A stretch of 64,000 bases of DNA. Origin: Gymnothorax reevesii (lineage: Eukaryota > Chordata > Actinopteri > Anguilliformes > Muraenidae). The stretch covers positions 31,365,111 to 31,429,110 of the forward strand of contig CM056592.1 of NCBI GenBank assembly GCA_029721435.1, written 5' to 3'. The position numbers were made by a program, and so were the translations under genes. The notes beneath the pieces were generated by a model. It made no database searches. It worked only from the letters and a program-made list of their open reading frames with translations, and was not told the origin of the DNA. This document shows positions 30,434 to 62,954 of this stretch, one piece after another; position 1 is the first letter of the stretch, and the number at the start of each line of letters is the position of its first letter.

Positions 30434-30554
30434 AAGTTCATCGAGTTCGAGGACAGTCAGGAGCAGGAGAAGAAGGATCTGCAGAGCCGTGTGGAGACGC
30501 TCGAGTCGCACGCCCGACAGCTGGAGCTCAAGACCAAAAACTACGCAGACCAGA
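30434..30554 (+). CDS. spag9: spag9 (JIP4) coding exon, coiled-coil part 1
   Basis: The exon follows a pyrimidine-rich tract ending in GCGAGCAG and stops at CAGA|GTGAGT. It is 121 nt: 40 codons plus one base. It reads [17 protein letters not shown] and continues to ...[10 protein letters not shown], which I recognise as JIP4 just after the RH1 region. The favoured form is JIP4 rather than JIP3 because of [12 protein letters not shown] (JIP3 has EDALEQEKKELQ). The segment is part of the long N-terminal coiled coil that makes the scaffold a parallel dimer and helps link JNK modules and cargo to kinesin-1 and dynein. The exon ends in phase 1, and the leftover A is completed by TT of the exon at 39078 to give Ile. 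Exons for the preceding N-terminus (RH1 domain) are not visible in the window. Confidence 0.95.
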
Positions 30555-32149: not shown

Positions 32150-33775
32150 TTTGACTGAATCTGTCTGCATCACTGCGTCTTTTTTTACATTTTCTCCATT
32201 CCCATCCTGCAAATAATGCTGTAATGAAGGAATCCTGTGAGAATTTCTGATTTGTTTTGCTTGGAGAGATTCCTGAGTGGAATTTAAGTGGAAATATGTA
32301 CACGTGTACAAATAAAAAATAAAGACCATCTCGGGTGCAAAACGAGAAATGGAATGAGAGCGCTTTCAGGTTTTTTGTTTTATAAACTTAGAGTTTGTCT
32401 GTCCTCAATGATACCCGCACATTGTCAGAAAAATGTTTCATTCACAAGGTGTCCTGCATTTCGCAGAAAAGATCAACAATGGTGTCATTTTCCTTGTTAG
32501 CTTGTGGAATTACCCCCAGTGCAGATGACTTGTGCTTGATGGTTTAAATGAGAAGAGCTGGCAATGCGTGTCCTCAGTTTAGAGTCACAGTCGATTACAG
32601 TATGTTTCACATCGTTAGAGTAATTTCTCCTCTAACCACAATTTGGCGCACTGGCTACACCTCGTAGAGTTGAGTGTATTTGGAGTTGATGATTTGTTAA
32701 TGAAGGAAAATGATTGAAATCAGGTTTAGGGCAATCAGCAGTGAAACGGCTCTTATCTCTGAGGCTGCCCCTAATGTGGACAGGTTCTGTGCTGATTAAT
32801 ATGGTTATCATTTTAACGCATTAAACTCTATCAGTCCACACCTGACATGCAGACATTATTCTGACTGCCTGTTCCCGCCCGCAGCAGAGTATGCTTGTCT
32901 AGGGTTCTAAGGAGCCGCAGGGTTCTGGAGATTATCCCCCACCGTGCGATTAGCGCGAAGCAGGGGATATAGCATTGGGCTCCCTCTGTACGTACGTAAG
33001 TCCGTCCGTCCGTTCGTACACATAAAATTTAGGAGGCGGGGAATATTGCCATGCTAGTGGCAAACACTTTCCATCCTGTAACTTGTATCACTGCATGCTG
33101 TCAGCTCAGTTGCAGATGTAAATATGAGGGTGTTGAGTTTGTAAGGAGGTGGAATCAGAGTAAATATTGGCCTGTTCGCTCGTGTGCATCTGTGCTGAGG
33201 TAATCGTCTCCTCTCCAGCTCTCTGTCTCTACAGCTGACTCACAGTTACTCGGTGCACCTCGTCGCCGTGACGCCACTGAGCTCTCCGTCTTGGTCACTG
33301 TGCTTTTTCTGTCTCTGACCTGCTGTTCCGGACAGACGGTAAAAGCTCTGCTCCGCAGTTGCCCTGGGCACTGATGCGTGTCCTGCTTCAGAAATAGTGC
33401 ATTTGACACTGCTCTTAAAACACTGGAGCGGACCTCTGACGCCCGCTTGATGTTATAGAGCAGAGAATGCGTAAATACAAACGTCAGCCATGAATAGTTA
33501 GTTCCACCTCAAAGGTCAGTCCCCTTGGTGTTTCTTGTGCTCAAAAATCACTGTCATTTCTGTTCCTCGTTCTCACAAACCGTGAGAATAAAGTTTCTTT
33601 CTAAATTTTTCTTCCCAGTGTTACTATTTTCTTTTTCTCATGAAACACAAAGGTCTGCTAATGAACTTGCTGCACAGACTGACCAGAGAAGGTATCCTGT
33701 TGAATTGTCATGTCTGTACTTCGAAACCACCCAAAACCACCACTGCTGGTTTGCTTTGACAGGGGAGGCCTTGTG

Positions 33776-34505
33776 CGATCAGGGCTGTCCCCGGGATGTG
33801 CCATCAGGGCTGTCCTCGGGATGTGCCATCAGGGCTGTCCTCGGGATGTGCGATCAGGGCTCTCCCCGGGATGTGCCATCAGGGCTCTCCCCAGGATGTG
33901 CCATCAGGGCTGTCCCCGGGATGTGCCATCAGGGCTGTCCCCGGGATGTGCCATCAGGGCTGTCCCCGGGATGTGCCATCAGGGCTGTTCCCGGGATGTG
34001 CGATCAGGGCTGTCCCCGGGATGTGCCATCAGGGCTGTCCCCGGGATGTGCCATCAGGGCTCTCCCCGGGATGTGCCATCAGGGCTGTCCCCGGGATGTG
34101 CCATCAGGGCTGTCCCCGGGATGTGCCATCAGGGCTGTCCCCGGGATGTGCCATCAGGGCTCTCCCCGGGATGTGCCATCAGGGCTCTCCCCGGGATGTG
34201 CCATCAGGGCTGTCCCCGGGATGTGCCATCAGGGCTGTCCCCGGGATGTGCCATCAGGGCTCTCCCCGGGATGTGCCATCAGGGCTGTCCTCGGCATGTG
34301 CCATCAGGGCTCTCCCCGGCATGTGCCATCAGGGCTCTCCCCGGGATGTGCCATCAGGGCTGTCCTCGGCATGTGCCATCAGGGCTCTCCCCGGCATGTG
34401 CCATCAGGGCTCTCCCCGGGATGTGCCATCAGGGCTGTCCCCGGGATGTGCCATCAGGGCTGTCCTCGGCATGTGCCATCAGGGCTGTCCCCGGGATGTG
34501 CCTGT
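33776..34505 (+). repeat. 25-bp minisatellite, about 29 copies
   Basis: The unit is GGGATGTGCCATCAGGGCTG then TCCCC, with G/C or T/C variants. The period is not a multiple of three and no unit contains a + strand stop in any phase. All three + frames are therefore open, giving ORFs of 345, 265 and 240 residues. This is a property of the unit, not evidence for a protein. It lies in the 30555-39077 intron. Confidence 0.95.
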
Positions 34506-42396: not shown

Positions 42397-42491
42397 ATGA
42401 TTCATAACTACATGGAGCACTTGGAGCGCACAAAACTGCCTCACCTGACGGGAGGGGAGGTTCCTGAAACAGCCACGCTGAGCAGAGTTCG
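42397..42491 (+). CDS. spag9: spag9 (JIP4) coding exon, coiled-coil end before MAPK-docking motif
   Basis: The acceptor is TTGTGTTCATTTCAG and the donor is GTTCG|GTAAGA. It is 95 nt: 31 codons plus two bases. It begins MIHNYMEHLERTKLPHLTGG, matching JIP4 (MIHNYMEHLERTKL...), and then diverges as this linker does among vertebrates. The leading Met is internal, not a start. The remaining CG joins G of the exon at 52107 to make Arg, the first basic residue of the MAPK-docking motif. This exon belongs only to the long isoform; the short isoform begins downstream at 46498 and skips it. Confidence 0.95.
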
Positions 42492-45428: not shown

Positions 45429-45461
<33 letters not shown>

Positions 45462-45476
45462 TGAGAGATCAGCAGG

Positions 45477-45511
<35 letters not shown>

Positions 45512-45605
45512 TGAGAGATCAGCAGGGGATCTGTATGTGATCAGCAGGGGGTGTGTGTGTGTATGTGTAAGATCAGCAGGGGATGATGTGTGTGATCAGC
45601 AGGGG

Positions 45606-45649
<44 letters not shown>

Positions 45650-45740
45650 TCAGCAGGAGATTTGTGTGTGTGTGTGTGAGATCAGCATGGGATGTGTGTG
45701 TGATCAGCAGGGTGTGTGTGTGTATGTGATCAGCAGGGGA

Positions 45741-45773
<33 letters not shown>

Positions 45774-45845
45774 TCAGCAGGAGATTTGTGTGTGTGTGTG
45801 TGTGTGTGAGATCAGCAAGGGATGTGTGTGTGAGATCAGCAGCGT
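45429..45845 (+). repeat. Compound (TG)n / GATCAGCAGGGG array
   Basis: About ten blocks of (TG)n alternate with (A)GATCAGCAGGGGAT. This is a minisatellite whose units contain a microsatellite. ORFs of alternating Cys-Val are artefacts. It lies about 250-650 bp upstream of the alternative promoter. Confidence 0.9.
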
Positions 45846-46497: not shown

Positions 46498-46658
46498 ATG
46501 AGCCCCGGCTGCATGCTGCTCTTTGTGTTCGGATTCGTCGGCGGCGCTGTGGTCATTAACTCCGCCATCCTGGTGTCTCTGTCGGTGCTGCTGCTCGTGC
46601 ACTACGGCGTGTCCACCGGCCTCCCCGCGCTCACGCAGGCGCTGCCCGCAGCCAGCAG
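46498..46658 (+). CDS. spag9: spag9 alternative first coding exon (short isoform, hydrophobic N-terminus)
   Basis: ATG in CACCGCCATGA opens 53 codons plus two bases and ends at AGCAG|GTACCG. It reads MSPGCMLLFVFGFVGGAVVI and continues with a long hydrophobic run, then HYGVSTGLPALTQALPAAS. From memory, the short human SPAG9 isoform (first described as a sperm antigen) begins with the same residues for about 35 positions. It then runs through STGVPALTQ into the shared KERPISLG sequence. The final AG plus G of the exon at 52107 gives AGG (Arg), restoring the shared frame exactly. Residues about 6-35 form one likely transmembrane or signal-anchor helix. This form lacks RH1 and the first coiled coil, so it should be membrane-tethered and unlike the motor-adaptor form. 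The frame stays open past the donor, but the C-rich sequence there is intron. Confidence 0.9.
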
Positions 46659-46809
46659 GTACCGGCGGGGGCTGTCCGGCGTCTCCTGTCTTTTTCTCCT
46701 CTCCGTTCCCCCTCTACTCTCCATTCCTCCCTCACCACTCTTTCTCTCGCTCTGTCACTCTTTTCCTTTTGCTGCCGCTTCTCTCTTTGCAGTTGTGGAC
46801 ATTTCTCTC

Positions 46810-46864: not shown

Positions 46865-48210
46865 GTAAAGTACTGTCGGCCCTTGGCAGTGAGGCCTGGT
46901 TTCTGTCAGTCGGGATGGAGATCCTCTCTGTGCCCGTCGTTATAGCTCTTCACACGGGACTCGCCGTTTCGGCGCCGGCGAAGCTGCCATTTGGAGGCGT
47001 TTCAGAACGACTCCTCACCTCTGCCGATTGGAGTCGGCGCCAGCATTTGTCAGCCGTAAATATTTAACCGGAAAGAGTGTGGCTACAGTCTGCTGTCATC
47101 GTCTCCCATAACACGAGCGAGATGTCCTGCGTGTGACCTCTCTGTTGGTCGGGGCGTCGCTGCAGCTTTAGGGTTTCTGTGGTGTCATCGCTGCTGCTGC
47201 GCTTAGGTCTTCATGCCTCTGTAAACGTCAGTAAGGTCTAACGGGGGCATTTCTTTGAAAAATGAAAGTATTATAATTGTAGCAGACTATCTGTTTGTCA
47301 TTTGACAAGATATTTTCTGGATGTTAGTAAGTTGAAAATTGAGTTTAGCATGCAGCATTCATAAATGGGCAAATCAACATTCTTAGGTTCCAGTAGGAGT
47401 CTCATGCTTTAATTTGGGGATAATTTGGTCAGGTTATGGTTTCAGCCTTGACATTCGCTCCCTGATAAAGGTACGGTTACACAGGGGAACATCAGAACTC
47501 GCAGCCCTTTACGGAGTGTGAGGTAGTTTGGTGCCTTTCTGTGAGAGACTGGGCTCGGTCCTGTGAGGACATGATGAATAAGCTGCGGTCCTACTGCCAA
47601 GAGGACCTGGCACTGACCTGAGAACAGGGGAAATGGTCACATTCTGTGCTAATGTTGGTACATATGAATGACTGTTCCCTGGAGTGAAAGTGTGAGCTGG
47701 ATGATGATTGGAGGGGCTAAGTTTGGCTGAGATGTGCCTCATCTGACTGTAGTCCCGTCTGCTCATGTCCTGGTCTGATGTCAGCCTTGTGTTGGGCTCA
47801 GAGGGGCTGAGATGGGACCTGCTCTTGGATTCATCTCGGTGAGAATGGCGCAGTGAGGCTCGGGAAGTGCCTTTGTGTTCCGAATGCAAAGCAGGGTTAT
47901 TTTGGGCAACATTGCGTCAACCCTCAGGAAGAGCATTGCATTCTGGGAAATTGGTTAAAGAGGCCCAAATCACCGGCTTGGATCTCTTCATTCAGCTGAA
48001 ATGACCATGAGATGTTTGTGCACCTGATGGTCGATCAGTTTCTTCTGTATTCTGAGGTTCTGAGTGCTCTCGATTGATTGGGGAACCGGCTTTATCTGGT
48101 CCAGCTGCGGTATTGATAAATACATGGGACCGGATCTAAACATCAATACAGCAGAGGCTCTGATGCATTTCAGGTTTGGTCTTCGTTAGTGGTGTAATAT
48201 CATCACAAAT

Positions 48211-48890
48211 CTTCTCACAGGCGCATATAATGTCAGGTGTCATATACCGTCAGTAAAAAGCTTCTCACAAACGTGTATAATGTCAGGTGTCGTATACTGT
48301 TAGTACAAAGCTTCTCACAGGAGTGTATAATGTCAGGTGTCATGTACCGTCAGCACAAAGCTTCTCGCAGGCGTGTATAATGTCAAGTGTCGTATACCGT
48401 CAGTACAAAGCTTCTCGCAGGCGTGTATAATGTCAAGTGTCGTATACCGTCAGTACAAAGCTTCTCACAGGCGCGTATAATGTCAGGTGTCATATACCTT
48501 CAGTAAAAAGCTTCTCACAAACGTGTATGTCAGGTGTCGTATACTGTCAGTACAAAGCTTCTCACGGGAGTGTATAATGTCAGGTGTCGTATACAGTCTC
48601 GCAGGCCTGTATAATCTCAGGTGTGGTATTCCATCAGGCACAGGTGTGTATAATGTCAGGTGTCGTATACCGTTAGCACGAAGCTTCTCGCATGCGTGTA
48701 CAATGTCAGGTGTCGAACATTGTCTCGCAGGCGTGTATAATGTCAGGTGTTGTATAGTGTCAGACACAGGCGTGTATAATGTCAGGTGTTGTATAGCGTC
48801 AGACACAGGCGTGTGTAATGTCAGGTGTTGTATAGCGTCAGACACAGGCGTGTATAATGTCAGGTGTCGTATACAGTCAGACACATTGCC
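48211..48890 (+). repeat. 50-bp and derived 40-bp minisatellite
   Basis: The units begin CTTCTCACAGGCGTGTATAA, then TGTCAGGTGTCGTATACCGT, then CAGTACAAAG. The first six are 50 bp. Later units are shortened and end as 39-40-bp copies (GTATAGCGTCAGACACAGGC). ORFs on both strands are by-products. It is unrelated in sequence to the array at 52240. Confidence 0.92.
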
Positions 48891-49665: not shown

Positions 49666-51653
49666 AGGGGACCTATTATGCTGATCCATCTTTTAATACA
49701 TAGTAGTAATGTTATAATGTTGGTTGTCCAAACTCAACCTCTTCAAAGTTTCTGAACATAAGATACAGGGTTTTTGCCGTTATCCAAGAACGTGATTTCC
49801 TCTCTGAACAGCTCCTTCACGAAATCTGGGCAAAACCTGATGTGAGGTTGTGCCATCCAATTAGTACAGACCTAGCCAGAGCCAATCACTGCGCTGGACC
49901 TGCCCACACCGGAAACTATTCTAGCGGGCACTAACAACGGCAGATCATACTATGCCTTGGTAGCGTCTACACTTTTAGAAATACTAAAGAAGAACCACAG
50001 ATCATTTGTGGTGCAATTTTGTCAGTATCTCTCCCAAAGCTGCTTGTCCGTTTACTTTTGGATGCGAAGAAAAACAAATATTTCTCTTCCAAAAGATGGT
50101 GCCACCAGAAATCAGTGGGTAACTTTTTTGTTTGCTGGCAGCAAACAGCCACAGCCAAAGGGAACGTTAGCTGTTTGTGCTCAGCATTTCACCAAAGACT
50201 GCTTTGTTAATAAAGGATAATTCGACACAGGATAAGCATTTCAGCTGCTTCTCAAACCTGAAGCGGTTGCATCGATCAAGCGCTTGGAGCCACAAGCTGT
50301 AAGTAACCATATAACAGCAAATAATGTAAGTGAAGCTAACGTGTTACGGGTGGCTAGCAGGACCGCTTGCGATAGTTGGCACTAACAACTGGCCTCAAAG
50401 GCAGGTTTTGTAAAATATCTGAAGATAAGCCTTTATCGGTCGTGACTGTCCATGACTCACAGACACACAAGCTGTAAGTTGCATTTACTGCATTAGCATA
50501 CCTGACGTGATAGCCAGTTGATTGTGGCTGTAGCACAGCGGCTAACGTAGCCAAGTTACTGTTGCTAATGTTTGGGTCCTAAATATGCAAGAGTGATAAT
50601 CAGGGGAAATTCTACAGAAGGTGTGTGAACATAAACCTCATTTGAAGCTAACTTTTATTACTTGTTTGTAATTTGGATGCTTGGTACAACTTTTCACAGT
50701 GACAGAACTTGCTGTCTGTAAAGCCTGTATTGCAAGGGTTTGCCTCTGTGGTTATGACCGCTCGGTTACCAGCTACTCCATGCGAGTTTGCATGCCGTGC
50801 TAATTAAAAATGCTCCTCGCCTGGTTAGCTTTTATATGCAGTAATTCTGATTGGTATGCTTGTGTTACTTCGGTAAGCATCAATGTGGCAGTTTCATCAT
50901 AACGTAGCCCAATTGTAGCCACTACAGCTAGTGATCATAGGGAAGATTCAGTGACTTTCATCACTAAAATGGTCACAAATGGAGCCTAGGTTTGTGTAAC
51001 TGACATCTAGGAAGTCGCATCTGAACTTTCATTTGGTGACATTCAACTTATGAAGGTCAAAATCGACAGTGAAATTACAATGACTTGTGTCACCAAAATG
51101 GTCACAGATTGAGTCAGGGTTTGTACAGAGACATTTACTGTCCATTTACTGACTTTACCTTCTGTGACCTTCAAAGTTCACAATTGACGTATTGAATTGT
51201 CAGTGACTTGTATCCCCAAAACTGATTCAGCACTTAGGATTGTATAACAGGAGGGCTGAAAAATGTATGTGAACTTTTATTTAGTGACCTTTGCGTTGAC
51301 TTTCAAGGATTCGAATTTCAAACCACATGAAATTTTCACAACTTGTATCATCACTATAAGATTACTTGCCTGTAAGCTACAGGACCCTCTGTCCAATTTT
51401 TAAAAATTTAATCTCTGTAACATTTTAAAATTATTATTGACATTATAATTTGGATCAAATATTCTGAAGAATCCGCTTGAGCTTTGCTCAGCGTCTGATG
51501 GAGCTTTGAAACAATCAAACCCTTAATCTGTCTGTAAGCAGGACAGGTAAAGTTATGTGAAATAACATTTGTAAACATATTATTTCAAATAATTTAAACA
51601 TGAAAAAGCCCATTTAAGAGGAATACCTTCTCTATTAAAACTATGGCTCCCTT
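49666..51653 (+). mobile_element. Kolobok-like DNA element with THAP remnant (TTAA borders)
   Basis: The left end AGGGGACCTATTATGC, preceded by TTAA (49662-49665), is a terminus I associate with abundant fish repeats. The right end CTATGGCTCCCTT, followed by TTAA (51654-51657), is a diverged inverted copy (about 10 of 14 positions). A THAP-domain-like reading frame lies just inside the left end. TTAA target plus THAP fits Kolobok; P-type elements also carry THAP but make 8-bp duplications. The right boundary is the weaker one. Confidence 0.6.
49957..50217 (+). pseudogene. THAP-domain fragment of a transposase
   Basis: The frame reads ...ISLPKDGATRNQWVTFLFAG, then SKQPQPKGTLAVCAQHFTKD, then CFVNKG and a stop. 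The spaced Pro, the Trp and the C-x-x-H-F pattern followed by a hydrophobic residue are typical of the second half of a THAP zinc-binding domain. The first Cys pair is not intact, because the upstream frame has stops after ATGCCTTGG. It is a decayed transposon exon, not a host gene. Confidence 0.65.
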
Positions 51654-52106
51654 TTAAAAGCCTGTATGCACATGCTTGGTGTGACAATTTTGAAACCATC
51701 TTCATGTTTGGTTTAACATGGTCTTTATCATAAATATCTCAATCCAAAACATAATCATGATGCTATCTACTTTTATTGAGCTCAGAGCAAAGTTTTGGTG
51801 AGCTGGCACATGAGGAAAGTAAGTGTTGGGTGTAAGATCCAAAGGAAAGAGATCACAAACTGGTTTATAATTAAAAATAAAAAATTCACTCCTGTTTTGC
51901 TCATGTACGGGGGCGGAAACATCTGTGTTCAGCAGGGCACAGATTCTCAAGCTTGTTTTATAACACTATAGTTCTGATAGTAATTTAGTTAAAATCACCT
52001 TCGTATTGGCAGAGGAAAAAAACAATCGTTGAGCAGTCCTTCAAGAGTTGATATACGATCCGATTGAAAAGATGACATCTGAAGATCTTTATTCTCCTGT
52101 GGGCAG

Positions 52107-52260
52107 GAAAGAGCGGCCCGTGTCCTTGGGCATCTTCCCTCTTCCCGGAGGAGATGCTGTCCTCTCGCCTGAGGAACGCAGGGAGCCTGTAGAAACCCCC
52201 GGAACAGACACCTGGAGATACAACGTCCTCAGCCACCCGCGCTCCAACACCAGCCTCAAG
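52107..52260 (+). CDS. spag9: spag9 shared exon with JNK/p38 MAPK-docking motif
   Basis: The exon follows TTCTCCTGTGGGCAG and ends at CTCAAG|GTGAGC. It is 154 nt: one base plus 51 codons. It reads KERPVSLGIFPLPGGDAVLS and continues to ...LSHPRSNTSLK, clearly matching JIP4. With the Arg made across the splice junction, the start forms a D-type docking site: basic R-K-x-R, then hydrophobic L-x-I-F-P-L. In JIP3/JIP4 this binds JNK and p38. Two upstream exons can supply the Arg: CG|G from 42397-42491 or AG|G from 46498-46658. The last 20 bases of this exon resemble part of every unit of the 50-bp tandem array that begins at its donor. That array may disturb splice-site choice. Confidence 0.95.
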
Positions 52261-54540
52261 GTGAGCTCCCACCAGCCTGTCACTCACTCCACTCTAACAC
52301 CTGTCTCAAGGTGAGCTCCCACCAGCCTGTCACTCACACCGCTCCAACACCTTTCTCAAGGTGAGCTCCCACAAGCCTGTCACTCACACCGCTCCAACAC
52401 CGGTCTCAAGGTGAGCTCACACCTGCCTGTCACTCACACCGCTTCAACACCTGTCTCAAGGAGAGCTCACACCTGCCTGTCACTCTCACCGCTCCAACAC
52501 CTTTCTCAAGGTGAGCTCCCGTCAGCCTGTCACTCTCACCGCTCCAACACCTTTCTCAAGGTGAGCTCCCACCAGCCTGTCACTCTCACCGCTCCAACAC
52601 CTTTCTCAAGGTGAGCTCCCTCCAGCCTGTCACTCACACCGCTCCAACACCTGTCTCAAGGTGAGCTCCCTCCAGCCTGTCACTCACACCGCTCCAACAC
52701 CTTTCTCAAGGTGAGCTCCCACCAGCCTGTCACTCACACCGCTCCAACACCTTTCTCAAGGAGAGCTCCCACCAGCCTGTCACTCACACCGCTCCAACAC
52801 CAGTCTCAAGGTGAGCTCCCACCAGCCTGTCACTCACACCGCTTCAACACCTGTCTCAAGGAGAGCTCCCACCAGCCTGTCACTCACACCGCTCCAACAC
52901 CAGTCTCAAGGTGAGCTCCCACCAGCCTGTCACTCTCACCGCTCCAACACCTTTCTCAAGGTGAGCTCCCACAAGCCTGTCACTCACACCGCTCCAACAC
53001 CGGTCTCAAGGTGAGCTCACACCTGCCTGTCACTCACACCGCTTCAACACCTGTCTCAAGGAGAGCTCACACCTGCCTGTCACTCTCACCGCTCCAACAC
53101 CTTTCTCAAGGTGAGCTCCCGTCAGCCTGTCACTCTCACCGCTCCAACACCTTTCTCAAGGTGAGCTCCCACCAGCCTGTCACTCTCACCGCTCCAACAC
53201 CTTTCTCAAGGTGAGCTCCCACCAGCCTGTCACTCACACCGCTCCAACACCTGTCTCAAGGAGAGCTCCCACCAGCCTGTCACTCTCACCGCTCCAACAC
53301 CTTTCTCAAGGTGAGCTCCCACCAGCCTGTCACTCACACCGCTCCAACACCTTTCTCAAGGAGAGCTCCCACCAGCCTGTCACTCACACCGCTCCAACAC
53401 CAGTCTCAAGGTGAGCTCCCACCAGCCTGTCACTCACACCGCTTCAACACCTGTCTCAAGGAGAGCTCCCACCAGCCTGTCACTCACACCGCTCCAACAC
53501 CAGTCTCAAGGTGAGCTCCCACCAGCCTGTCACTCACACCGCTCCAACACCTTTCTCAAGGTGAGCTCGCACAAGCCTGTCACTCACACCGCTTCAACAC
53601 CTGTCTCAAGGTGAGCTCCCGTCAGCCTGTCACTCTCACTGCTCCAACACCTTTCTCAAGGTGAGCTCCCACCAGCCTGTCACTCACACCGCTCCAACAC
53701 CTTTTTCAAGGTGAGCTCACACCTGCCTGTTACTCACACTGCTTCAACACCTGTCTCAAGGAGAGCTCCCACCAGCCTGTCACTCTCACCGCTCCAACAC
53801 CTTTCTCAAGGTGAGCTCCCACCAGCCTGTCACTCACACCGCTCCAACACCTTTCTCAAGGAGAGCTCCCACCAGCCTGTCACTCACACCGCTCCAACAC
53901 CAGTCTCAAGGTGAGCTCCCACCAGCCTGTCACTCACACCGCTCCAACACCTGTCTCAAGGTGAGCTCCCACCAGCCTGTCACTCACACCGCTCCAACAC
54001 CTTTCTCAAGGTGAGCTCGCACAAGCCTGTCACTCACACCGCTTCAACACCTGTCTCAAGGTGAGCTCCCGTCAGCCTGTCACTCTCACCGCTCCAACAC
54101 CTGTCTCAAGGTGAGCTCCCACCAGCCTGTCACTCACACCGCTCCAACACCTTTCTCAAGGTGAGCTCCCACCAGCCTGTCACTCACACCGCTCCAACAC
54201 CTTTCTCAAGGTGAGCTCCCACCAGCCTGTCACTCACACCGCTCCAAGACCTTTCTCAAGGCGAGCTCCCACCAGCCTGTCACACACCGCTCCAACACCT
54301 TTCTCAAGGTGAGCTCGCACAAGCCTGTTACTCACACCGCTCCAACACCTTTCTCAAGGTGAGCTCGCACAAGCCTGTCACTCACACCGTTCCAACACCT
54401 GTCTCAAGGTGAGCTCCCACCAGCCTATCACACACCGCTCCAACACCTGTCTCAAGGTGAGCTCCCACCAGCCTGTCACTCTCACCGCTCCAACACCTTT
54501 TGCAAGGTGAGCTCCCACGAGACTGTCAATCACGCCATAC
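52240..54540 (+). repeat. 50-bp minisatellite grown from the spag9 exon 3' end and its 5' splice site
   Basis: Forty-five complete units (mostly 50 bp; two of 48 bp) and a partial 46th run from 52261 to about 54540. A unit is GTGAGCTCCCACCAGCCTGT, then CACTCACACC, then GCTCCAACACCTTTCTCAAG. The last 20 bases match the authentic exon end at 52241-52260 (GCTCCAACACCAGCCTCAAG), so the array is a multiplied exon/intron junction. Of 46 unit starts, 36 keep AAG|GTGAGC (including the real donor), nine have GAGAGC and one has GCGAGC (54261). A 600-bp higher-order copy is visible: 52311-52910 resembles 52911-53510 unit for unit. The 67-residue ORFs inside the array are by-products of a period that is not a multiple of three. 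Confidence 0.97.
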
Positions 54541-55179
54541 AGGTCTGTAGTAACCTTCCTACCATCCTGTTCATTTTATTTCATCCCTAATTTGGCATTC
54601 CTTACTATAATTAGGAGCGTAACAAGCAGGCGGTGAGCTTTTTTTGGCTTGCAATGATAACCCTCAGAATGGCCGATCCCCAGGAACAGGGTTGGTCATA
54701 TTTCTTTACAGGACCTGGGAATTTCACCATCAAAGTGGTGTCTTTGTTATTCTCTTGACCTGGTTTTCTTTATGTGAATTCAGCGTTCCTCTTGGTTAGG
54801 ATTCCTTTTAAAATTATTTTTCTTATTATTCTTCCTCTTTTCCTGCATGTAACTCCTCCTGTAGTTTTTCCAATGCCAAATGTCAAAAAATATGCTGCAC
54901 AATTTCATCGGCTGTGCGTATTGACAGCCATTGAAATCTCCCAGCAGTCTGTGATGTTGAAGACCTTCTGGGTTGTAATTCTTGTGAGGATGATTTGTGG
55001 ATTGATGCGTCCTGTGATACCATAATGCCTTCTTGTAGCCTCTCTAAACAGTATGACTATGCACCAATAACTGCTTTGACATAGTTACTGCCATGGTAAT
55101 GCATCTGGACACTGGGTTGCATTTTTGCTGGTGAGAATTTAGTCGTTAAGTTTAAGGCTTATTACCTCCGTTTTCATCT

Positions 55180-55855
55180 CAGTTTGTTTATTGGTTTGTT
55201 AGTTTGTTTGTCTGTGAACAGAATAACTCAAAAACTTGGGGGTGGATTTGGATGAAATTTTGTGGTAGGATGAAATGGGTCAAGGACAAACCAATTCACT
55301 TCTGGTGCATGTGCATCAAGGGTCAAGGTCAGGGTGGCCTTAGTAGTGACCCTGGGTTTGTGTGTAGCCGGCGTAGCATTAGGACCCTGAGGTGAGCAGG
55401 AGAGGAAAGAGGGCATGAGTTAATGGCGATCTGCATGCATTCTGTGAGTGGATCGCGTATTTGGCTTTTAAGTTTTCGGTAAGTTTTTATTCATTTTTCT
55501 TTTTTGAAATGTTCTTGAATGCTATTGTGACTTTTTTGTCTCGATTATAAAATGCTCTTGACGAAATTCGGAGATATTTTTTTACTTGAGTATTTTCCAT
55601 TCTACACAGTTCCTGGGTTTCCGCAGCCCATTCGTCAATCCGTCAGAAGACCAAAATAAATCTGAACAGACGAAGAAAAAGCCGTTGCTCGTTGATTTGG
55701 ATGAAATTTGGTGGAAGGGGGACCTATGGGCCCAGCGCAAATTGATTAACATGAACATTGTACGATCACAGTCAAAGTGATGGTGGATGATTCAAGTTTG
55801 GCCAATACTGATAGTGCTATTAGCGGAGGGATGCGCTCCACTAGTATCTCTCTCT
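55180..55855. repeat. Degenerate interspersed repeats (GGATTTGGATGAAATTT modules)
   Basis: Two stretches, at 55190-55400 and 55600-55850, share GATTTGGATGAAATTTNGTG followed by GGTCAAGG or GACCTATGG phrases. They look like old copies of one family seen widely in fish. A similar style of sequence occurs at 16400-16860, 14120-14340 and 43380-43690. Class unknown. Confidence 0.45.
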
Positions 55856-56396
55856 AGTATTAAGTTTGGTGGATGAATCCTGTCTCTTGGCTCCTCAAAT
55901 GTGCTGTGTGTGTTTAGCATGTCAGGAGCCTGTGTTCTGTCGGAGAGACGAGGCCTTTGAGGGGGAGGTCTGTCTCGGGGTGTTTTGAATGCCTGAGTGG
56001 GGTTCGCTGAGGTCGGCCGGAGGAGTGGGCATCGGTGGCGTGTTTGTGGGTGCTGGAACAGGGGCGTGTCTGAGCCAAAACATCAGTTTCCTCATTGGAC
56101 GCTCGAGCGCCTCCTGACCTGTCACTCAGAGTTCAGGCTGCCCTGCTCCTGATGAATATTCATTAGAGCAAAGCGCTCATTGTTGTCAGTTCGCGTTATT
56201 TGCATTTGTGTGGTGGAATTGGGGAAGATGCTCTGTTTGGAAAATTTTCAGAGAATTCTGAATTCAAAACTTCTCTTCTTTCACTGTGCTCATGAACAGA
56301 CCAGCAGGCGCACATGCTGTTGAATGCTAACAGGACAGAAATCGGTCACAAAGAGCGATGTCGCAAAACAGGAACCGTTTCACACCTGAAGATGTA

Positions 56397-57795
56397 CAGT
56401 GCTGTGAATAAGTATTTGCCCCCTTCCTGATTTCCTATTTTTAGAAAGGCTTGAAGATCTTAAAAAACAACACATCATGCTGCAATCTAAAGAAATTCAA
56501 GAACAGATGAGAAACAAAGTCATTGACATTTATCAGTCTGGAAAGGGTGACAAAGCCATTTCTAAGGCGAACCATGGTGAGAGCCATTATCCACAAATGG
56601 AGAAAACTTGGGACAGTGGTGAACCGTCCCAGGAGTGGCCGCCCTACCAAAATTACTCCAAGAGCGCATCGACTTTTCATTCAAGAGGCCACAAAAGAAC
56701 CCAGAACAACATCTAAAGAACTGCAGGCCTCACTTATCTGCGTTAAAGTCAGTGTTCATCACTCAACAATAAGACAGAGACTGGGCAAAAAATGGCATCC
56801 ATGGGAGAGTTCCAGGGCGAAAACCACTGCTGACCAAAAAGAACACAAAGGCTCATCTCACTTTTGCCAAGAAAAATCTTGATTGTAACGTCTTTATTGA
56901 GATCTCTTCAGCAGTGTAGTATTACAGGCCCAGTCCCTGCTAAGGGAAATAACCCATTACCAGATACATGCAAAGCCACATGCTACACAACGTGCCACCC
57001 ACATTTAAAGCTAGGTCACTAGGAGACAGTTGGTGCAGGGTGAGAGGCACACAGTGCTAATAGTGTTCATTAGCAGGACAGTACATTTGAAGATCCCCAA
57101 GACTTTTGGGAAAATATTCTGTGGCCTGACGAGACAAAAGTTGAACTTTTTTGAAGGTGTGCGTCCCATTACATCAGGCATAAAACTAACACAGCATTTC
57201 ATAAAAAGAACATCATGCTAACAGTCCAGAATGGTGGTGGTAGTGTGATGGTCAGAAGCTGCTTTGCTACTTCAGGACCTGGACGACTTGTCATAATTGA
57301 TGGAACTATGAATTCTGCTGTCTACCAGAAAATCCTGAAGGAGAATGTCCAACTCTCAGATTGTGATCTCGAGCTCAAGCGTACTTGGGTTATGCAGCTG
57401 GATAATGATCTGAAACACACCACACCAGCAAGTCCACCTATGAATGCTTGGAAAAAAAACAAATTGAAGGTTTTGGAGTGGCCTAGTCAAAGTCCGGACT
57501 TAAATCCGATTGAAATGCTGTGGCATGACCATTCAAAAACCCTCCAATGTAGTTGAATTAAAACAATTCTGCACAGAAGAGTGGGCCACAATTCCTCCAC
57601 AGCGATGTTGTTGTCGTGGAGGGTGGCACAACCAGTTGTTATGATTAGGTGCAATTGCTTTTTCACATAGGTCCAGGTAGGTTTAGATAGCTTTTTCCCT
57701 CAATGGATGACCTCATTATTTAAAAACTGCAAGTGTGACAAATATGCCAAAAAATTAGAAATTAGGAAGGGGGCAAATACTTTTTATCCGCAGTG
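56397..57795 (+). mobile_element. Full-length but inactive Tc1-like transposon
   Basis: The left end CAGTGCTGTGAATAAGTATT continues TTGCCCCCTTCCTGATTTC. The right end is GAAATTAGGAAGGGGGCAAA then TACTTTTTATCCGCAGTG. They are inverted, imperfect and bordered by TA (56395-56396 and 57796-57797). The 1.4-kb length fits Tc1 elements of about 1.2 kb plus an internal insertion of about 0.2 kb. The transposase inside is broken. Confidence 0.92.
56505..57556 (+). pseudogene. Broken Tc1 transposase
   Basis: The N-terminal DNA-binding part is readable in two frames at 56505-56880: RNKVIDIYQSGKGDKAIS, then RPRSGRPTKITPRAHRLF. The catalytic part follows at about 57090-57556: W-P-D-E-T, then GGGSVMVRSCFATSGPGRL, MQLDNDLKHT and SPDLNPIEMLWHD. 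The DDE residues are therefore recognisable. Several frameshifts and about 205 bp of unrelated sequence (about 56885-57090) between the two halves destroy the ORF. Confidence 0.9.
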
Positions 57796-60400
57796 TAGAT
57801 GCTCACTGGAATGTGTGCCTTGCAGGGACAAATGAGGAGGACCATATTTACCCAGTTTTTTCGGTGGTTTGTGTTTGCACCCGTGTCAGCAGTGTAGCAC
57901 AAAAACAATGTGATCAAATCACACCAAATTTTCAGGCTGATTGTGCAACGGGCCCGGAGCTCCTGATAAAATTCCGAACCTAGTTTGGTGACTGTCAGAA
58001 TCACTGGAAGACCGGGGAGGGTATGCTGTGTTGCAGCACTTGTTGATTTTGGATTTTAGATCAACTTCTACTCCCAATTTGGCTGAACCATTTACAGTCT
58101 GACATTTTTTATCCTCTGTCTTTCATATGAAAAGCTGCTGCTGATTGTAGTTGCTCCAGAGAGGACATGGGGTGGCATTGCGGTTTAGTCTAAGCGAATC
58201 TTTACTGGTCTACAGGAATTATTCGCTGAGTGACCTGGGCTCACCCAATGGCAGCAAAAACTTGCACTCCAATCCTTTCAGAAAGGAGTTATCCGCTGCC
58301 TTCAAGCCCTCTTTAGTGTCAGTTATACGTAACAAATGCATTAGTGAAGAGAATAGGGCTGCACACTGACCGTTGTCTGACAAAACTAAACTGTTTATAT
58401 TTCAGAATTTGTTTTTGGAACTCTGTCTGATTCTGAACTCTGTTTGCTGCTGTTTTTACTGGCTTTAAATGACCAAAGGTTTTCTGCAGTCTTGTCGCAG
58501 CCAGTGTGTGAAATGCTGAGGCAGGAGAGACTGTTGTTTTTGTCATGTAGTGCTTTTGTTGCTCGCTCAGGAGATGGAAGCCAGGCTGTAGCTTTGTGAT
58601 TGGTGGGTTTGTGCTGTCATGGCAACATGAGGTAATGATGCCCCTTTAAAGTATGCAGGGGGTTACAGACAGACCAGTATGTCCTGGCGTGGCAGGCATT
58701 GCTTTGCGCGGTCAGATGTTTATACAGCTCATGATATTGGCCGATTTGATGTTGTTTTAAGTGAATTATTTGCACTATTTGTGTAAATGGTGTGTGTTTC
58801 AAGGTGACTTGTGAACTGAAGGGTTCCCACCGAGGCGTTAACCTCTAATTCCGTGGAAAGGATTTAAAAACGGGGTATTTGATTTGTTCAATTTATTTGC
58901 AAGTAGAGGTTAAATCTAATGTGACCAAGAGACTTTTTTTTCGTTAGATAAAAGAACTGTGTCTCCTTTGTGCTGCTTAAAAACCAATCAAAACTGGAAT
59001 ATCCCACAAAGCTGTCTGATTGTTGTAGCTTCTCTGACTTTTTATGCTGCCTGCAGTGCTGGCAGACAGTACCGGCTTTGTTAACATCGCGGGCTTTGTT
59101 CTGGAAAAGAACTGCGACGTGTCAAAGTTGAATATTTGATTATATAAATTTCGGCAGCCACTAAAAATACATTTTTCCAGCTGATGACTACCATTCAAAA
59201 CAAAATATTATGGTGAATGTGCCTGCTATGCACTTTTTTTCTGTTGTTCACTTTGCACAGATTAATATTTGCACTGGTATGGGAAATTCTGTCCCTACAG
59301 ACTGTATGGACATTTTTGTTTCAAAAGAATTGAGACACTAATGCAGTGGTATTATTCCTTTATGAAATGTGTTGCTGAATTCCCTCCCATCTACAGCCAT
59401 TGATCGCAGCACTGAAGTCGGGACTCGTTTCAGGGTCGCCTGTGCTGCCTCCCCAGTGTCGGCTGAAGACGTCTCGCTTTCCTCGTCAGGATCCATTTTC
59501 ACTTATCCAGCGGTTATTCATACAGAGGAACAGGCTAAAAATAAATCCTTTTCTCTGTCAAAGCAGAGGCTTTATAAAGCCGTTTTCTTTGAACAGTGAT
59601 GATGAAAAGATGAATGAATAACCACGAGTGTAGATGAAGTGTTTTGTTTCATAGCTGCTGTTATGTTCCTCTGTGTGGGCAGGTCCTGGAGCCTCGGCCT
59701 TCATTTGTGCCTGTGAAAGAGGGGGTTAGACTTCCTTAACGATCAGCCATGTTACTGTGACAACCTGTCTCTCCTTTGTTAGACTCAGGGTGCGAATCAC
59801 ACGCACGTTAAGATTTTGTGCTGCATGTTGTGCCAGCATCCGTTTAAAATGTTTATTTTACTGCAATTCTCTTCCTGACCAGTTGGAGGCAGAAGAATCA
59901 CTCAGAACGAGGGAGGGTAAGAGTTCTCAGGAGTCTTGGGGTGGTTCGCTGGCTGACGAACGCAAGGTAGTTGGACCTGTAGTGACAGGAGTAAAATCAC
60001 GTCCCTAGGAGTGATCAGTCTGCCTCTGGTGTCTGTGGCCTATAGCTGTCTGTGCTGCCTGTCACTTCATGAGCGCCGTGTCTGTGTTCGTCCGAACCGC
60101 ATGTCGCGCTCCGACTGCTGCATGCACCCATGCAGGTGTTGAATTTGGCTCCTCCCATTTCAGTTAACCCTTTCCTGCTCCAGGGTAAGGTAATCATAAG
60201 TACGTATATTTCATGTCCTCGATAGCTGAAGAGAAGTTTTGTTTTTTCGGCCTTTTGAAATGTGCCCGCGGGGCAAAAAGGTAACCCTTTGATGCCTGTC
60301 AGAAAAAAATGCTATTTTCTGGCTTTGTTTTGACACAATGCATATTGTTCAAAATGGAACATTTTTTTAAGAGGGTTGGTGCCAAAGGGCTGGTTTATTA

Positions 60401-61013
60401 AGGCGCTTTCACATGCGTTGTGTGACGGGTATACAACAGGTCTACAACAGAAATGTGAGGTAATTTGTGAGACGATCGTGAGCATGTCCTACGAAATTCA
60501 TGTATTCTTCGACGGGAAAGGCTGTCATAGGCCCTCGTCATAGAATTTTGAACATGTGCAAAACTTTTTGAGCATCATAGGTGATTCTCTATGTTTGGCG
60601 CATTTCGTAGGTCAATCGTGCTGTGCCCTACGAGGTTGTGCGACTGTCTTACACTACAAACCTACGAATATCTTCTGATTTTTGGGGTCATCTGAGGTCC
60701 TCATAGTCTTTGGAATTTCCAGCAGTAGACCTATGGACATCCTGTGCTAAACCCATCAAAGTCCTTCGACGTTCAACCGTAGTACGTCCTTTCTGCGTCC
60801 GTCATGAGTTAAGCGAACGATTACGGTTCTATCTACAGTTGTCTTGAAATTTTTTATTTGGCATATATTCCTACGACGGTAGTACGACACATTGTTATGG
60901 GACCGCTACTATGCGACCTTCAAATCCTTCTCTCTTGAACCTACGTCAGTCCCGTCTGTCGCGGACCTGCTAAAATTATACAACATGGAGTCACACGACG
61001 TATGTGAAAGCCT
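60401..61013. mobile_element. Inverted-repeat MITE (CTTTCACATGCGTTGTGTGAC ends)
   Basis: CTTTCACATGCGTTGTGTGA near 60406 and TCACACGACGTATGTGAAAG near 60991-61010 are inverted copies with few mismatches. The interior is unusually rich in TACGA/TCGTA motifs. There is no transposase, and the exact ends and target duplication are unresolved. Confidence 0.6.
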
Positions 61014-62049
61014 CTTCAGCTTGTATATCAAATAATGCCTAAAAAAAGGGGAAGAGCAGTGCTTATTTCCCAAGTAATTTTTACTTCTCTTGATGGATGT
61101 TTTGAAAAGACAAACACTTGGGTTGCATGCAGTCAGTGTACGTTGCCTGGTCAGCCATATTGCATGGTACATTACTCTCACTGCTCATCCTCGGTGTGAT
61201 CGTCAAACATCAAGCACTAATCTGTAGACGCATCTCACGAGCACTAAAGCATTAACTCTGCGCACTTAATAGAGTAGCCTAGCATTGTAGCTACAAGTTT
61301 CACGGCGTATGTTTTGATTTGTGTGCCTCTGGTCTAACAGTGTCCAGTAAGTGCATCCGTCCTGTGGTAGAACAGGAGGAGGATCTGTTTGTATGTCGAG
61401 CATCTACCTGTTACAGTGGATGGTGCGATGGGAGATGGCACGTTTTTGGTGTGGTTTTGGTCCACTGTGCCGTGTATTTTTTTTTGCTTCTGTCGTCTGG
61501 AATCAGTGCTCTGTGTGTGTGTGTTTCCTGTGTAAGCAGTGTATATTCATGTCATGCCTAATGCCGTCCTCAGGAAGTGCATGTGTGGGCATGAGCTGAT
61601 CCCCTTTTCCGGCTGAAATATTCGGCCATTTTGGGCCAGAGTACTGTGGCTTCTTGCTGCACAGATTTAGGAGAAACGCAAGCTCTCATGAAATGTTTGG
61701 AATGCTATCAATCATGCAGCCGAGTCGAGCACTTTAGACACTCCCTCAGTTAAATACTGTAACTCTCCAAAAACACGTCCCAAGTTCACTATATGCACAT
61801 CCTCACACTCTATCGCAGCTCTGCACCTTGTGAGGGAAGAGCCTTAATAAATAGGCATTGGGTTTCCGCCTCTGATGTTTAATGGCTGTGTGTGTGTTAT
61901 CTGGCTTCATGTCGTGTTCGAGTGCGGTTCGGAGCACCATGTCGTGGCCTGACTGAGGCCACTGTGTCTGACATGAGACCTCCCCGGGTCTCGAGCCTCA
62001 GGGCTGCTCCTCTGTGTGACGCTGTGATGCCGATTGGCTGTCGCTGCAG

Positions 62050-62206
62050 GATGAGCTGTCCGATGCCACGCCCGCCCCCTCAGACGCGGCCCCGCCCCTT
62101 GCGGACGCGGCGCAGAAAGCGCAAGCCGAGGGGCTAAAGAAGAACCTGAACACCAGCAGCGGGAAACCAGACAGCAGCAAGAACATGGACGTGCCGGGAG
62201 ATCCAG
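62050..62206 (+). CDS. spag9: spag9 coding exon, variable Ala/Pro-rich linker
   Basis: The acceptor is TGGCTGTCGCTGCAG and the donor is GATCCAG|GTGCAC. It is 157 nt: 52 codons plus one base. The start DELSD matches JIP4 exactly. The rest (ATPAPSDAAPPLADAAQKAQ..., ending SSKNMDVPGDP) is low-complexity and diverged, as this disordered linker is in the family. Phase 0 at the start and phase 1 at the end agree with both neighbours. Relative to my memory of mammalian JIP4 and JIP3, the usual (I/M)EVQV-x-QE-x-RNVS stretch after the KNM/KHI position is absent. I see no separate small exon for it in the 654-bp intron that follows. Confidence 0.88.
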
Positions 62207-62860: not shown

Positions 62861-62954
62861 ATGCATCTGAAAATGCCCCGAAGTCGGAGGTGCAGGCCAT
62901 AATCGAGTCGACTCCTGAGCTGGACATGGATCTGAGTGGCTGTAAAGGATCCAG
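62861..62954 (+). CDS. spag9: spag9 coding exon (KSEVQAIIESTPELDMD)
   Basis: The exon follows CCGCATTTTTCTAG and ends at GGATCCAG|GTGTGA. It is 94 nt: two bases finishing an Asp codon, 30 codons, then AG. It reads ASENAPKSEVQAIIESTPEL, then DMDLSGCKGS, matching the strongly conserved JIP4 segment; two residues (KD) after DMD in mammals are missing. The function of this conserved acidic stretch is not established to my knowledge. It lies between the docking motif and the second leucine zipper. The frame remains open into the intron for some codons, so the end was set by the donor and by agreement with the next exon. Confidence 0.93.

Follow-up and report, generated by a model that had tools for sequence, protein, structure and literature searches.

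Here, we describe a minisatellite seeded on an exon-intron junction of a putative SPAG9/JIP4 gene in Gymnothorax reevesii, which places an array of further splice donors directly behind the true 5′ splice site. The array lies on the + strand at positions 52240-54533 of the window, that is, the whole 64,000-nt stretch of DNA that was analyzed. It belongs to a known kind, from which it stands out by a longer unit, numerous intact donors, and alternatives that are all non-productive. We consider it likely that exon definition picks the first donor and that the array is mainly a tolerated passenger.

The host gene is probably SPAG9/JIP4, a better name than JIP3. The tblastn query was a human JIP4/SPAG9 sequence not taken from a database, which is weaker than a database test. 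It recovered six exons at 53-90% identity and a SPAG9-type alternative first exon at 80%, all collinear and on the + strand. JIP3 was the sole solved relative in a PDB search (E = 6e-56), with an alignment that was gapped and diverged over the ...PRSNTSLK end of the exon that carries the junction. Because JIP3 diverges over this exon end, JIP4/SPAG9 is the preferred name. A Pfam search of the joined exons returned just Sipho_Gp157, at 17.8 bits and under its cut-off of 28.6.

Two upstream exons lead to the junction. The long isoform has a coding exon at 42397-42491 (+ strand; MIHNYMEHLERTKL...SRVR; tblastn, edges read). The short SPAG9 isoform has an alternative first coding exon at 46498-46658 (+ strand; from the ATG, MSPGCMLLFVFGFVGG...; tblastn E = 1e-26, edge read), with the donor CAG|GTACCG at 46659. 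Both (donors 42492 and 46659) join, in the same phase, a 154-nt exon common to the two isoforms at 52107-52260 (+ strand; KERPVSLGIFPLPGG...PRSNTSLK; tblastn E = 9e-16). This exon is bounded by AG at 52105-52106 and GT at 52261-52262 and was read as ending in phase 0. From the same-phase joining of both upstream exons, we infer that the donor at 52261 is constitutive. Edges were also read by eye for an exon near 30.4 kb (30434-30554).

The next recognized coding exon (62050-62206, + strand; DELSDATPAPSD...) was missed by tblastn and read by eye. It is in frame from donor 1 only and closes the host intron. The intron therefore stops at 62049; an initial sequence-only reading had proposed mapping RNA across 52107-62206, and 62206 is the end of this exon. 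The host intron (52261-62049) is 9,789 nt long (2,273 + 7,516 nt), and the introns upstream of exon 52107-52260 measure 9,615 nt in the long isoform and 5,448 nt in the short one. Human JIP4 presumably carries VSNSPEPQKAVEQ at the position of the host intron. A search of this intron for a similar microexon gave 197 candidates with a best score of 10, which were taken as chance, and no small exon was recognized there. Within exon 62050-62206, TRF also detected a short 20-bp duplication (62071-62111).

The array has a period of 50 bp, 46.0 copies, and 92% matches, and its TRF score of 3818 is the highest among the 34 rows for the window. Its unit consists of 21 nt of exon end and 29 nt of intron start, and the last 21 nt of exon 52107-52260 are the seed of the repeat. 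Cutting the array at AAG|G yields 46 junctions, the first at 52261 and the last at 54507. Thus, an array of about 45 junction copies, as proposed by the sequence-only reading, is confirmed by both TRF and decomposition. Decomposition likewise agrees with its count of 36 AAG|GTGAGC starts among 46: the junctions comprise 36 GTGAGC, nine GAGAGC (units 5, 11, 13, 17, 21, 23, 25, 31, and 33), and a single GCGAGC (unit 41). All 36 GT donors, including the true one (AAG|GTGAGC, 52261-52266, + strand), have the 9-mer AAGGTGAGC in common. This leaves 35 identical 9-mers behind the true 5′ splice site, matching the approximate number previously suggested.

Two further details of that description hold in part. 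A spacing of 50 bp applies to 43 of the 45 junction intervals; the other two, at units 41 and 44, measure 48 bp. The supposed copy of the last 20 bases of the exon is a close likeness and not an exact one, since the unit consensus (CACCTTTCTCAAG) differs from the real exon end (CACCAGCCTCAAG) at 3 of 21 positions. These mismatches lie at -9, -8, and -7; at the last of these, every one of the 45 copies carries T in place of the C of the exon.

The consensus is lost after 12 nt of unit 46, where the last junction copy (54507-54544, + strand) gives way to ordinary intron and can serve as a proxy for the ancestral intron start. The presumed ancestral junction, made up of the exon tail and the head of this last unit, matches the unit consensus at 43 of 50 positions. 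Elsewhere on the + strand, ungapped comparison with the consensus reaches at most 25/50 matches, and no exact 12-mer of it occurs outside the array on either strand of the window. The resemblance of the unit at the SPAG9 junction is not chance, and the proposal that the minisatellite was seeded on a real exon-intron junction stands. An Rfam search at gathering scores gave zero matches, and in a list of ORFs of 90 aa and more, none longer than 99 aa lies wholly within the array.

The array shows a defining feature of minisatellites, namely a unit of ~10-100 bp in many imperfect head-to-tail copies. Its 45 units fall into 24 types and show a higher-order period of 12 units (600 bp): units 3-7 are identical to units 15-19, and units 10-13 to units 22-25. 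Of the 31 pairs of 50-bp units that are 12 units apart, 10 are identical; every other lag between 1 and 24 gives 0-4 identical pairs. This block recurrence is ordinary minisatellite behavior, as in block duplication. The 12-unit repeat could also stem from mis-assembly, in which case the real genome would lack the array or carry it at a very different length. We regard this as very improbable, given 24 distinct unit types, a length of only 2.3 kb, a window free of N, and clean flanks. The copy number in the assembly may nevertheless be off.

The window is rich in tandem arrays, which form seven regions that together cover 8.0% of its bases, and six of the seven touch no known exon edge. This list was made by hand from TRF rows with the shorter rows left aside, and the check covers exon edges from 30.4 kb onward. 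Inspection of the shorter rows by eye found none that holds a known exon edge; the duplication at 62071-62111 is inside its exon.

Only the first junction is predicted to be productive. In a spliced model, junction 1 alone gives an uninterrupted frame across the three following exons, while all 45 later junctions (35 of them GT) lead to a premature stop. With junction 2, the stop falls in the following exon, 72 nt short of the end of that exon. From junction 3 on, transcripts include an in-frame TGA at 52312-52314 (+ strand; ORF 52033-52314), which is made by the second donor itself. The sequence-only reading had anticipated both this TGA and the non-productive outcome of later donors. Nonsense-mediated decay is the usual fate of transcripts with premature stops, and later-donor transcripts are expected to be removed in this way. 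Since every later junction is non-productive, heavy use of the array should be costly.

We predict that donor 1 wins, because the exon is short and has long introns on both sides. This prediction draws on minigenes that were built for exon definition (Carranza et al. 2022, PMC9225289). In the parts of that paper available to us, five constructs set two strong donors of identical sequence against each other at a distance of 52 nt, with introns of 365 nt on either side, and all five used the upstream donor exclusively. Database events with donors of near-equal strength and long introns on both sides also favored the upstream donor, while short introns let the donor closest to the downstream acceptor prevail, a result for which Reed and Maniatis are cited (PMC9225289). 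When both donors were weakened, larger exons were mainly skipped and smaller ones kept the upstream preference; before the filter for equal strength, ~60% of human alternative-donor events favored the downstream donor (PMC9225289). The minigenes described there are like the SPAG9 array in having identical competing donors at nearly the same spacing and introns on both sides. They differ in being engineered and carrying two donors, whereas the SPAG9 array has 36 donors in a natural gene. The array need not trouble the spliceosome, as exon definition is expected to pick the upstream one of identical donors.

The following history would account for these observations. The sequence shows a tandem duplication of ~50 bp across the SPAG9 exon end and intron start, and ordinary minisatellite turnover inside the intron would then have produced ~45 copies. 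The original exon and donor stay intact at the 5′ edge of the array. With a short, 154-nt exon between long introns, the spliceosome would define across the exon and take the first donor, which is nearest the upstream acceptor, as the published minigenes suggest. U1 probably binds the copy donors now and then, though they would seldom be used. Any leaks would yield premature-stop transcripts, with removal by nonsense-mediated decay expected.

An alternative is that the array acts as a length-dependent poison switch, in which sizeable use of later donors yields decay-prone transcripts and copy number sets SPAG9 output. The 35 extra donors with the 9-mer of the true site would provide the means and the 45 premature stops the effect, and human IFI6 does use downstream repeat units as donors, in the available text of PMC4526556. 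Against this, the comparable minigenes used the upstream donor exclusively in the available text of PMC9225289, the GT is gone in 10 of 45 copies, and only copies 2-4 would give exons of near-usual size (204-304 nt). There is also no sign that donors are conserved among copies, as set out below. We therefore consider such a switch unlikely.

The pattern of variation bears on any function of the copies. Within the donor 9-mer, copies vary at +2 alone (T to A in nine units, T to C in one), and this essential T is lost in 10 of 46 junctions spread through the array. Because the sole variable donor position is the indispensable +2 T, we see no sign that the copy donors are conserved, and the array of this one assembly gives no indication of purifying selection on them. 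Variable columns number 1 of 9 in the donor 9-mer and 18 of 41 in the rest of the unit (Fisher P = 0.13, a generous value since the copies are related). Fewer variable donor columns would fit weak constraint. The roles of buffer, decoy, or length-dependent regulator floated in the sequence-only reading thus find no positive evidence, with the +2 T lost at these 10 junctions.

Splice sites, the donors of the array included, were scored with approximate matrices rather than MaxEntScan, and the scores used cover recognized exons other than the one near 30.4 kb. By this measure, among the 4,316 GT sites on the + strand of the window, 38 match or exceed the score of the true donor; the array donors account for 36 of them and two lie elsewhere. 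In RNAduplex, pairing of U1 with AAGGTGAGC has an energy of -9.6 kcal/mol, compared with -4.8 or -5.2 kcal/mol for the GA and GC forms.

U1 protects introns from premature cleavage and polyadenylation. The array could thus be a landing pad for U1 snRNPs, which would help define the exon or shield the 9.8-kb intron from such cleavage. The 36 sites that pair with U1 at -9.6 kcal/mol, and an array that supplies 36 of the 38 top-scoring GT sites, would suit this role. However, the 7,516 nt beyond the array contain three AATAAA and one ATTAAA, versus three and seven, respectively, in the 5,448-nt upstream intron, so there is little for U1 to protect against. In addition, the +2 losses are scattered through the array, and in local folding the donor 9-mers, the true donor included, are seldom wholly unpaired (~3e-7 to 2e-3 over three folding-window sizes). 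A U1-binding role thus seems improbable, somewhat more so than a switch set by copy number.

Each intact copy is also a potential acceptor, which would allow self-erasing, recursive splicing. In this scenario, splicing from donor 1 into copies would remove whole units, and a late-donor transcript could be re-spliced to the correct mRNA. Splicing of donor 1 into an intact copy rebuilds AAG|GTGAGC, so the event would leave no trace in mRNA. Of the 242 AG|GT sites in the window, 37 fall within 52201-54559 (36 junctions and one just past the array). The copies have a median acceptor score of 3.4, in the 82nd percentile of AG sites (approximate matrix); 21 of 46 junctions score 4.8 and one scores 5.4, where the true exon end scores 0.2. 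These values lie near the two weakest of six recognized acceptors, at 62861 (4.6) and 62050 (5.5), but the other four are higher, at 6.4, 8.0, 10.0, and 10.6. The gain in acceptor score further depends on about three changes at -9 to -7. AAG is a poor acceptor end, and an intron of 50 nt is generally too short for vertebrates. Fission yeast genes are described as splicing across two or four copies of a 24-bp AGGT repeat in the portion of PMC4974935 available, which lends the scenario a precedent. We nonetheless give it very little credence for the SPAG9 array. A mixed account also seems improbable, though less so: copy number would act as a dial, with donor 1 yielding protein, the other rungs yielding decay-bound transcripts, and splicing within the array erasing some errors.

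Hairpin masking of the copy donors was considered and rejected, as the accessibility result changed with the folding window. Masking of the copies and not of the true donor would explain tolerance. The altered copy tail lets CACCUU...AAGGUG close a longer stem around the donor, and 16-nt folds have energies of -3.6 kcal/mol for the exon, -5.1 for the TTT type, and -5.8 for the TGT type. GT copies with a 9-mer no less accessible than that of the true donor numbered 24, 4, and 1 of 35 for folding windows of 60, 120, and 200, respectively. The corresponding numbers for 6-mer openness were 19, 6, and 3 of 35. When all copies were given the tail of the exon itself, the 9-mer counts became 31, 5, and 10 of 35.

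Minisatellites that supply donors have a precedent in human IFI6 (6-16, G1P3). The IFI6 minisatellite has 26 repeats of 12 nt; according to the RefSeq summary, it begins near the end of exon 2. Its 12-nt unit means that alternative use stays in frame, a feature that is perhaps specific to that case. In contrast, the SPAG9 array has a 50-nt unit, and none of its 45 alternatives is free of a premature stop. Like the IFI6 repeat, it begins where an exon ends, and a donor consensus recurs in its units from 52261 on. The title of Turri, Cuin and Porter 1995 (NAR 23:1854; cited in PMC4526556, PMC2572611, PMC2915984, and PMC3618361) presents the IFI6 minisatellite as a source of multiple donors. The claim that no such example had been described therefore falls. 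According to the available text of PMC4526556, two repeat units lying downstream serve as donors in IFI6 isoforms, so leakage has precedent. For IFI6, donor use within the repeat has been reported on the basis of RNA, whereas the SPAG9 array is known from DNA.

Two other systems invite comparison. In the Rogers model, introns are gained by tandem AGGT duplication, and the accessible text of PMC4974935 lists ATP2A1, the fission yeast genes SPOG_01682 and SOCG_00815, and a potato RdRp. As in the SPAG9 array, a tandem AG|GT is a potential donor and acceptor, and the potato case spans an intron-exon boundary; however, those cases gain a new intron, while the SPAG9 array multiplies an existing donor inside an existing intron (PMC4974935). 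Introns 1 and 3 of Sparus aurata GH contain polymorphic minisatellites (PMC3045353). These are also intronic arrays of a fish gene and vary between individuals; unlike the SPAG9 array, they carry no report of junction seeding or donor content in the portion of PMC3045353 available. Among the matches listed from the open-licence literature, we found no further junction minisatellite with donors, nor did the available portions of PMC12783039, PMC3039753, PMC11506328, and PMC8724738 describe one.

The SPAG9 array amounts to a natural competition in which 36 donors sharing one 9-mer follow a single exon at nearly regular intervals. RNA across this locus would bear on whether nearness across the exon or nearness across the intron decides the choice of donor, and on how far such a preference reaches. 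Near-exclusive use of donor 1 would mean that exon definition withstands 35 competitors; otherwise, array length would be a heritable control of SPAG9 output. The case also indicates that a junction-spanning minisatellite can traverse a gene without evident break.

Several other elements occur in the window. The host intron that carries the array also contains a decayed Tc1-like transposon (56511-57556), with Pfam matches to HTH_32 and DDE_3 above cut-off and to HTH_Tnp_Tc3_2 below it. The intron just upstream harbors a minisatellite with 50- and 39-bp periods (48205-48885), located 3.2 kb before exon 52107-52260. Its consensus unit also holds TCAGGTG, with no known exon edge there. A THAP-domain-like fragment lies at 49876-50220 (22.9 bits; Pfam cut-off 23.9). 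At 413-506, a 47-bp unit occurs twice, and its consensus includes a strong donor-like GAGGTAAGT, with no exon recognized at that position. An intronic 25-bp unit is repeated 29 times at 33772-34502 (95% matches); all three + frames are open there, with ORFs of 252-354 aa, which is probably a chance effect of the composition of the unit. Finally, a TG-rich array with GATCAGCAGGGGAT blocks occupies 45430-45808. It precedes the ATG of the alternative first exon by ~0.7-1.1 kb and is thus perhaps near the promoter of that exon.
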